Positions 25,050-55,520 of a stretch of 64,000 bases of DNA are shown piece after piece. The stretch's first letter is position 1, and the number at the start of each line of letters is the position of its first letter. Below the pieces are notes generated by a model. It saw only the letters and a program-made list of their open reading frames with translations, made no database searches and was not told the origin of the DNA. The translations under genes and the position numbers were made by a program. This DNA comes from Dietzia sp. B32 (lineage in GTDB: Bacteria; Actinomycetota; Actinomycetes; Mycobacteriales; Mycobacteriaceae), in NCBI RefSeq assembly GCF_024732245.1, contig NZ_CP093845.1, positions 1,860,001-1,924,000 of the forward strand. Reading direction: 5' to 3'.

Positions 25050-25853
25050 GTGACGACGACGAGACGGCCGGACTCCCGGCCCGGCGGCACCGGGCCCGCG
25101 CTCGCCCGCGACGTGCGGGGCGACGGGCTGCCGGTGGTGCAGTTGCACGGGCTCAGCTCGAGCCGGCGCCGCGACGAGGTGTTCGGGCTCGATCTCACGG
25201 CGGGCCGCGGCGGTCTACGTGTGGTGCGCTACGACGCCCGCGGTCACGGACGGTCGCCGGGCACCACCGATCCGGACGACTACACATGGCCGGCGCTGGC
25301 CCGCGACCTCCTGGGCCTCCTGGACGAGGAGTTCCCCGGTCAGCGCGTGCACGGGGTGGGGCAGTCGATGGGGTCGGCGACCCTGATCACCGCGGCGGTG
25401 GCCGAGCCTGGGCGGTTCGCCTCGCTCACCCTGGGCATCCCGCCGACGGTGTGGCGGTGGCGGCGCGAGCAGTCGCGGCTGTACGACCTCGCCGCGCGGC
25501 AGGTGGAACGCTGGGGCGGGGCCCGCTGGTCCGAGCTGACCCGGCAGCCGCCCACCTCGCCGGCCATCGACCCCGACCGGCCCGTCACCGCCCCCGACGT
25601 GGCGGACGAGTGGCTCCCCGCCGCGTTCCGGGGCGCGGCCGCCACCGACCTGCCGTCGCCGGAGGAGATCGGTCGGCTGGGGATGCCGGTGCTGTTGCTC
25701 GCGTGGCCGCAGGACGCCTCCCACCCGCTGGAGGTGGCCGAGGAACTGCTCGACCTGCTGCCCCACGCCCGGCTCGAGGTGGCACGCACGCCCGCAGAGG
25801 TGGCCGCGTGGCCGCGGCTGGTGGGCGACTTCGTGCACGACTGCAGCGGGTAG
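25050..25853 (+). CDS. Alpha/beta hydrolase
   Basis: A 267-residue alpha/beta-hydrolase-fold protein: [15 protein letters not shown] (oxyanion HG), [12 protein letters not shown], nucleophile elbow GQSMGS, and an acidic residue in [11 protein letters not shown]. Substrate unknown. The GTG at 25050 follows GGGGAAAGG; GTG 25026 is an in-frame alternative. It is divergent from the condensation-domain gene with about 45 bases between starts, so the two may share control. Confidence 0.8.
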
Positions 25854-25890: not shown

Positions 25891-27291
25891 ATGCGCGAAC
25901 TACAGCGGACGATCATCGACACACTCGGGGTCAAGCCCGACATCGACCCCGCCACCGAGGTGGAACGTCGGGTCCGGTTCCTCGTCGACTACCTCGCCAC
26001 GAGTGGCGCCAAGGGCTACGTGCTGGGCATCTCCGGCGGCGTCGACTCCTCGCTGGCCGGGCGGTTGGCCCAGCTCGCGGTCGAGCGGATCCGCGCGGAC
26101 GGCGGTGACGCGGTGTTCGTGGGGATGCGTCTGCCCTACCGTGTGCAGCACGACGAGGCCGACGCCGCGGCCGCGGTGGAGTTCGTCGACGCCGACGAGA
26201 CCGTGACCGTGAACGTCGCTCCGGGGGTCGACGCGCTCAACGCCGCGATCCGGGAGGGCACGGGCGCCGAGCTCACCGACTTCACCAAGGGCAATGCCAA
26301 GGCACGTCATCGCATGGTGGCCCAGTACGCGCTGGCCGGGGACCGCGGGCTCCTGGTGATCGGTGCCGACCACGCCGCGGAGAACGTCACCGGGTTCTTC
26401 ACCAAGTTCGGGGACGGCGCCGCGGACGTATTGCCACTGGCGGGGCTGAACAAGCGGCAGGGCCGGGCCCTGCTCCGTCAACTGGGGGCGCCGCAGCAAC
26501 TGTGGGACAAGGTCCCCACCGCCGACCTCCTGGACGAGAAACAGGGTCAGACCGACGAGGACGAGCTCGGCCTGCGGTACGACGACATCGACGACTACCT
26601 CGAGGGCCGCGACGTCCCCGGGGAGGTCGCGGAGACGATCGAGTCGGTGTGGCACCGCAACCGGCACAAGCGCACCACCCCGGTGGAGATGGCCGACACG
26701 TGGTGGCGGCCGGGTGAACAGACGGCCCTGGTGGTGATCGACATGCAGAACTCGTACTTCGAGTTCCCCGCCCTGGCCGAGGTGCGTGACGAGCTGGTCC
26801 CGCAGGTCAACGAGCTGATCCACGCCGCCCACGACGCCGGCCGCCCAGTGATCCTCGTGCGCACCGAGCACGCCCGTGACAGGTCCACGTGGACGATCAA
26901 CATGTGCGAGGACGACCAGGGGTTCGCCTTCCCCGGCACCGAGCAGGCACGGTTCCTCGACGAGCTGGCCACCGGCGACCACGTGGAGGTGATCAAGACC
27001 CGCGACAGCGCCTTCTTCGAGACCGACCTCAAGGCCCGGCTCGACCAACTCGGTGTGGACCACCTGCTGCTGTGCGGGGTGTCGACGCACAGCTGCGTAG
27101 CGCAGACGGCGATCGACGGGTTCGCCGAGAACCTCCACGTGGCCGTCGCCCGCGGGGCCATCTCATCGGACAACTCGGCCCTCTCCGAGGCGCTGCTCGA
27201 CTTCTGCGCCGACCAGATGCGCCAGCCGATCATCGATCAGGAGGCGAGCCTGGCGTTGCTGCGGACGGGCGAGTGGCCCGACGCCGATTAG
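25891..27291 (+). CDS. nadE: NAD+ synthetase (ammonia-dependent) fused to an isochorismatase-fold cysteine hydrolase
   Basis: A 466-residue two-domain protein. Residues about 1-272 are a complete ammonia-dependent NAD synthetase: ATP-pyrophosphatase loop [45 protein letters not shown] and [19 protein letters not shown]. After a short linker, residues about 278-466 form an isochorismatase-like hydrolase with a D-K-C triad: Asp284 ([10 protein letters not shown]), Lys369 ([12 protein letters not shown]) and Cys402 ([11 protein letters not shown]). NadE amidates deamido-NAD with ammonia; the second fold includes nicotinamidases, which release ammonia. The DxH metal site of PncA nicotinamidases was not found, so its substrate is open. 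There is no glutaminase domain, unlike M. tuberculosis NadE. Confidence 0.9.
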
Positions 27292-54831: not shown

Positions 54832-55520
54832 CGACGACGAGGCGCGCCCGGATCGAACTGGGCCATGGCGACATCACCCGGATCGCCGTGGACGCGGTCG
54901 TCAACGCGGCCAACAGTTCGCTGCTCGGGGGCGGCGGCGTGGACGGGGCGATCCACCGCGCGGGCGGGCCGACGATCCTGGCCGAATGCCGGGAGCTGAG
55001 GGCGGGTCGTCTGCGCGGCGGGCTGCCCACCGGGCAGGCCGTGGCGACCGGCGCCGGGGACCTGCCCGCCCGCTGGGTCATCCACACCGTGGGGCCGGTC
55101 TACGGGCGGGACGGTGGCGCGGACGGCGGAGCGGACGGCACCGGCAGGTCGCTCCTGGTCGACTGCTACCGCAACTCCCTGGCCGTGGCCGATGACCTCG
55201 GGGCCCGCTCCGTCGCGTTCCCGTTGATCTCCGCCGGGGCCTACGGGTGGCCGCGCGAGGACGCGGTCCGCACCGCCCTCCGGACGCTGGTCGAGACCGA
55301 GACCGAGGTGGAGGCTGCGACGCTCATGCTGTTCGACGCGACACTCTCGGCCTGGCCGAGCAGTGCCTCGCCGAGATCCTGCCCCGCTGACCACGCCGCC
55401 CCCGCCCGCATCCCGCACTCCGCCCCCGCCCGCATCCCACACTCCGCCCCCGCCCACGTCCCGCACTCCGCCCCCGCCCGCATCCCGCCGGATCCGCTAC
55501 CCTCCCTCCGGATCTGCTAG
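54828..55520 (+). CDS. Macro-domain protein with probable C-terminal frameshift
   Basis: A macro (ADP-ribose-binding) domain starting at the GTG of a GTGA overlap: IELGHGDITRIAVDAVVNAA, NSSLLGGGGVDGAIHRAGG, GQAVATGAGDLPARWVIHTV and FPLISAGAYGWPRED. The family hydrolyses ADP-ribose esters or O-acetyl-ADP-ribose. After LMLFDA (55340) the frame gives TLSAWPSS..., but the -1 frame gives DTLGLAEQCLAEILPR and a stop at 55390 if one G is restored after GACGCG. The intact ancestral protein would be about 187 residues. As read, the frame continues through a 24-bp repeat array into APARIPHS repeats and ends IRIC-like at 230 residues. The catalytic region is unaffected. Confidence 0.82.
   Translation: MTTTRRARIELGHGDITRIAVDAVVNAANSSLLGGGGVDGAIHRAGGPTILAECRELRAGRLRGGLPTGQAVATGAGDLPARWVIHTVGPVYGRDGGADGGADGTGRSLLVDCYRNSLAVADDLGARSVAFPLISAGAYGWPREDAVRTALRTLVETETEVEAATLMLFDATLSAWPSSASPRSCPADHAAPARIPHSAPARIPHSAPAHVPHSAPARIPPDPLPSLRIC
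55397..55492. repeat. 24-bp tandem repeat, four copies
   Basis: Four 24-base units beginning CGCCCCCGCCC. The first starts 7 bases after the stop codon that the unshifted macro-domain frame would use. In the shifted frame the array encodes four copies of APARIPHS. The ancestral array was therefore probably intergenic. Confidence 0.88.

Follow-up and report, generated by a model that had tools for sequence, protein, structure and literature searches.

Glutamine-dependent NAD synthetases, of the two-domain type F or of the two-subunit type C in PMC3376133, consist of a synthetase joined to, or lying beside, an amide-hydrolysing cysteine enzyme, in their case a nitrilase-type glutaminase. That paper proposes that glutamine use arose via the clustering, and then the fusion, of a nitrilase homologue, and gives an alpha18 helix and an extended C-terminal loop as marks of the two-component enzymes. 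It also asks where single-domain NadE obtains its nitrogen, reports that no gene stood out as a plausible non-orthologous glutaminase subunit, and argues for direct use of ammonia. Among open-access papers we found nothing on a fusion of NadE with an isochorismatase and, in the literature from 2013 on, no candidate for the nitrogen source of single-domain NadE.

A protein encoded in the window (the whole stretch of Dietzia DNA that was analysed, 64,000 nucleotides) likewise joins a synthetase to a cysteine enzyme that may hydrolyse an amide, but here the partner is a C-terminal domain of the isochorismatase fold; clustering before fusion, as proposed in PMC3376133, would have been the route of this pair too, with another fold. 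From residue 4 to residue 273, the whole NadE domain aligns to solved NH3-dependent NAD synthetases (family NF001979; PDB 2pz8, 1ee1), without gaps in the two best matches; unlike the Dietzia fusion, these are single-domain proteins. The gap-free alignment would fit an absence of the alpha18 helix and of the extended loop. The hydrolase half has its fold and D-K-C triad in common with PncA, RutB, biuret and triuret hydrolase, N-carbamoylsarcosine amidase and maleamate amidase, and shows about 16-28% identity to isochorismatase-like hydrolases in structural alignment; the triad is also described for TrtA in PMC7948467.

The fused gene and its conservation in Dietzia

The window comes from a genome of 3.73 Mb in a single contig. 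In a genome-contig scan (best 80 of 82 loci), its nearest relatives with a name belong to Dietzia, with D. maris first at 92%. The features considered here are the following:

25104..25853, + strand: alpha/beta hydrolase frame, which stops 37 nt upstream of the fused gene
25891..27291, + strand: fused gene, NH3-type NAD synthetase and isochorismatase-like cysteine hydrolase, 466 aa (Pfam, NCBIfam)
25891..26706, + strand: NadE domain, aa 1-272, with P-loop SGGVDSS (Pfam, NCBIfam, alignment to structures)
26707..26721, + strand: linker, aa 273-277, RPGEQ
26722..27288, + strand: cysteine hydrolase domain, aa 278-466, with triad D284, K369, C402 (Pfam, alignment)

The fused frame runs uninterrupted from ATG to TGA. 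Its first half scores 379 bits against the NCBIfam NAD(+) synthase model NF001979 (cut-off 250), carries the SGGxDS P-loop of NH3-dependent NAD synthetases and is covered from residue 24 to 264 by Pfam NAD_synthase (E of 6.3e-65, far above the cut-off). The second half matches Pfam Isochorismatase (PF00857) at residues 278-440 with an E of 1e-34 and 120.5 bits against a cut-off of 27, and has the D-K-C triad of the isochorismatase-like cysteine hydrolase superfamily. At E up to 0.001 Pfam found nothing beyond these two domains, and no nitrilase-like glutaminase domain of the kind present in type F enzymes. The frame, Pfam, NCBIfam and the alignments therefore all confirm what the original prediction had read from the letters, that is a single frame joining a complete NadE to a hydrolase with Asp284, Lys369 and Cys402.

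The junction between the two domains is less constant. The linker is up to 8 aa longer among 14 aligned fused proteins, which were picked from 38 partly redundant sources, and longer still in loci L157 and L169. An out-of-frame TGA at 26715-26717 could be taken for the scar of a former stop, but we do not claim it as such since the same letters can also be aligned to the hydrolase's own Gly-Glu codons. In the predicted full-length monomer model (pLDDT 81) neither an inter-domain interface nor a channel is visible, because its pTM is only 0.59.

Among the 23 Dietzia genomes, the fused frame is open in 15, broken by frameshifts in one (G170) and absent from seven, of which four (G034, G055, G150 and G160) are at least 99% complete. 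D284, K369, C402 and the P-loop are identical in all 14 aligned fused proteins. Given this recurrence of open frames and this invariance, neither a chance joining nor a sequencing error accounts for the fusion. Pairwise dN/dS in the same 14 proteins had a median of 0.19 for NadE and 0.26 for the hydrolase (90 of 91 pairs), and both fused domains are under purifying selection; judged by sequence, both are complete and conserved. A stand-alone NadE is present in Dietzia besides the fused one.

The original prediction had come with a proposal to look for the two-domain architecture across Actinobacteria, and among the matches listed every fused form came from Dietzia. None came up among the matches listed for the 185 non-Dietzia genomes of a family sample (201 in total, 16 of them Dietzia) or for the other genomes of a phylum sample of 396, these matches being sorted so that any fusion would rank near the top, and none was found in 198 genomes of a Propionibacteriaceae-like family. 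In the genome-contig scan (best 80 of 82 loci) the full-length matches were those of Dietzia and that of locus L035, in which the two parts are unfused.

Two different fused copies, on contigs C165 and C10 and 79-81% identical to the query, occur in one Dietzia genome (G200; 98% complete, 3% contamination), which is possibly a mixed assembly. The broken copy of Candidatus Dietzia intestinipullorum (G170; L033, L015, L182) is frameshifted near the junction and inside the hydrolase, in a genome that contains a PncA-like gene (L179) as well. The alpha/beta hydrolase upstream of the fusion is conserved in Dietzia, but as it does not always adjoin the fusion it was left out of the system. A conserved operon was likewise rejected, since a frame resembling an acyl-CoA ligase (judged by eye) lies between the alpha/beta hydrolase and the fusion in L024 and L028.

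Overlapping gene pairs in relatives and the probable origin of the fusion

In L035, on a contig labelled Propionibacterium sp., nadE and the hydrolase are separate genes that overlap by 4 nt (GTGA). By defining a close hydrolase as a match at E up to 1e-40, we found one in 8 of the 198 Propionibacteriaceae-like genomes, and in four of these eight it immediately follows nadE in the same orientation. The stop/start overlap of 4 nt recurs in G668 and G655 (GTGA) and in G623 (ATGA), so that all four linked pairs overlap, three with GTGA and one with ATGA. The other four close hydrolases are unlinked to nadE: about 50 kb off in G639, where the neighbour is a short-chain dehydrogenase gene, 19 kb off in G988, on another contig in G989, and in G969, which has no NH3-type NadE at that cut-off. 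Sugar-uptake-like genes (judged by eye) are also among the surroundings of the unlinked hydrolases. NH3-type NadE is present in seven of the eight hydrolase genomes vs 29 of the 190 others (Fisher 2.7e-5, uncorrected for kinship). Put the other way round, 29 of the 36 genomes of this family with an NH3-type NadE have no close hydrolase, and NadE therefore does not require the hydrolase.

A tree of NadE with 56 rows places the fused proteins with three of the four paired and two unpaired Propionibacteriaceae-like NadEs (98/97; sister to the pair of G623, 95/86), and the stand-alone NadE of Dietzia in a clade separate from the fused one. Three Gordonia NadEs without hydrolase nest inside the fused clade (92/82, not a strong placement). 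At the Gordonia loci L032 (6001-8896), L013 and L014, an NH3-type NadE close to the Dietzia fusion is followed directly by a frame resembling glutamine-dependent NAD synthetases at their start, and in L032 NCBIfam identifies this frame as such an enzyme (679 aa, 1024 vs 473 bits). The hydrolase tree, built from 27 of 28 intended rows with L209 left out, is weakly resolved and does not show the fused rows nested within the paired ones. Finally, the long-linker fusion of L157 keeps the letters QPTGETAL, which the unfused hydrolase of L035 has close to its start and that of G623 has in nearly identical form.

Because the fused NadE groups with the Propionibacteriaceae-like family and not with the stand-alone NadE of Dietzia, we infer from sequence both a direction of transfer and an order of events, pair first and fusion second, in which a coupled pair was probably transferred into Dietzia and fused afterwards.

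Possible ammonia supply and competing readings

Ammonia is what NH3-type NadE consumes, and cysteine hydrolases of the isochorismatase fold commonly act on amides or ureides. Our tentative reading, which falls somewhat short of probable, is that of a bifunctional enzyme in which a candidate amide-cutting hydrolase would supply ammonia to the NadE half, the amide likely being other than nicotinamide. The N-terminal half would amidate deamido-NAD to NAD with nitrogen from ammonia, the C-terminal D-K-C cysteine hydrolase would most likely cut an amide different from nicotinamide, and the ammonia released beside the synthetase would be a tethered source for the NadE half. As such, the hydrolase would correspond to the glutaminase domain in glutamine-dependent NadE, but independently of it and without being a nitrilase. 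Here we infer that the hydrolase acts as an amidase, that the two halves have ammonia in common and that they are coupled in some way.

Several observations favour ammonia supply. First, the triad is invariant and the hydrolase domain is under purifying selection. Second, half of the close hydrolases lie directly behind nadE, all with the 4-nt overlap. Third, NH3-type NadE is found in most hydrolase genomes and in far fewer of the others. Fourth, the close Gordonia NadEs without hydrolase precede frames that resemble glutamine-dependent NAD synthetases. The grouping of the fused NadE with paired and some unpaired Propionibacteriaceae-like NadEs, apart from the second NadE of Dietzia, also counts in its favour. 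In addition, a search with PF02540 gave, in the four paired genomes and in the window's genome, weak extra matches of 20-29 bits and nothing of the 83-92 bits that glutamine-type NadEs reach in G117 and, going by frame length, in G639 and G843; this absence also favours ammonia supply, but is suggestive only. G639, with its unlinked hydrolase, has a PF02540 match of glutamine-type strength, and G843 combines a hydrolase with what is apparently only a glutamine-type NadE (by frame length).

Almost as likely, if also below an even chance, is an operon fusion without coupling, in which the stop between two overlapping genes was lost and the loss tolerated, so that an independent small-molecule amidohydrolase and NadE share only their expression. 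The reason is that in half of the cases a close hydrolase is not linked to nadE, G843 apparently has only the other type of NadE, and 29 of the 36 NH3-type NadE genomes do without the hydrolase, all of which was also counted against ammonia supply, as were the stand-alone NadE of Dietzia, the four near-complete Dietzia genomes without the fusion, the varying linker and the low pTM. A tolerated fusion without coupling would fit the variety of neighbours around the unlinked hydrolases, the more distant relatives beside kynureninase (G843) or urease (G208), a close NadE retained without hydrolase in Gordonia, and a linker and domain packing that are not fixed by length or by the model; it sits less well with the overlapping adjacency in four out of four linked pairs, and with a fusion kept open in most Dietzia under purifying selection on both domains. 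Ammonia supply, which the original prediction had put forward as a possible role of the second domain, may thus still hold, and has gained from the overlapping gene pair in relatives.

If ammonia supply is taken further, the protein could be a second, independently evolved kind of NAD synthetase with two components, one of them, the committed nitrogen-releasing one, being a cysteine hydrolase of the isochorismatase fold that was at first a translationally coupled partner and then fused; this we regard as doubtful. Such a component would be what PMC3376133 sought beside single-domain NadE without finding it. In either case, a single small protein offers a test of an overlapping and then fused candidate nitrogen source: if the coupling is real, it would be a new way of feeding ammonia to an amidating enzyme, and if not, a clear evolutionary case of an overlapping gene pair becoming a fusion.

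We take the metal ligands of the nicotinamidase PncA to be Asp, His and His (DxH...H). In an alignment with P. horikoshii PncA, the hydrolase half has Thr at the ligand Asp, keeps one His and has Phe at the second, two of the three ligands thus being absent. The Thr at the DxH Asp position is invariant in 22 aligned sequences, as is the D-K-C triad, so the original caution that the DxH of PncA is not evident was right. The PncA model NF008623 gives 27.6 bits against a cut-off of 174, a cut-off that three canonical PncAs of related genomes also miss (96-109). Moreover, each of the five partner genomes that were checked (the eight other than G969, G988 and G989) carries a canonical PncA in addition. 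Because of the missing metal site and these separate PncAs, nicotinamide appears unlikely as substrate, and the original prediction is only partly supported: ammonia feeding is kept as a possible role, while coupling to nicotinamide salvage is disfavoured.

That the hydrolase is nonetheless a nicotinamidase is improbable. It would suit a genome in which the fusion is the sole PF00857 match (E up to 0.001) and PncB is present (C1, about 3148848-3150155; L191 3849-5156), but G034, which has PncB, lacks the fusion as well as any PF00857 match. A PncA-like gene was seen in two of the 23 Dietzia genomes (G150 and G170), neither with an intact fusion; PncA and the fusion possibly exclude each other in Dietzia, two genomes being too few for more. 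Pfam PF04095 misses the PncB of the window's genome and was dropped as a PncB test for its insensitivity, giving four weak matches in 23 genomes though the window's own genome, G034 and G150 have PncB.

As to other substrates, the hydrolase half misses the equivalog cut-off of each NCBIfam family that it matches, for instance with 24.2 and 38.4 bits against 370 and 378 for biuret hydrolase and RutB. Its structural matches to maleamate amidase, nicotinamidases, N-carbamoylsarcosine amidase, RutB and biuret hydrolase score about alike, and with so many families tied an assignment from the fold search was rejected. A hydrolase relative of 61% identity has an alpha/beta hydrolase and a convergent kynureninase (255 vs 246 bits) as neighbours in G843 (L145 3952-6540), and one of 46% is flanked by a LacI-type regulator and by urease genes in G208 (L146 4593-9094), the urease context being absent in the Arthrobacter relative L210. 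Neither context was repeated in the loci tested, and assignment from neighbours was rejected as well. Removal of another pyridine or tryptophan-kynurenine metabolite, such as a maleamate-like amide, is the least probable reading, as the kynureninase context on which it draws was seen once and maleamate amidase, though among the best structural matches, is equalled by the other families.

A search with PADLOC gave no match. A search of a plasmid collection gave a single relative of the hydrolase half (46.6%), from Arthrobacter. Elsewhere in the window, a tandem repeat of four 24-bp units with 90% matches occupies positions 55392-55488.
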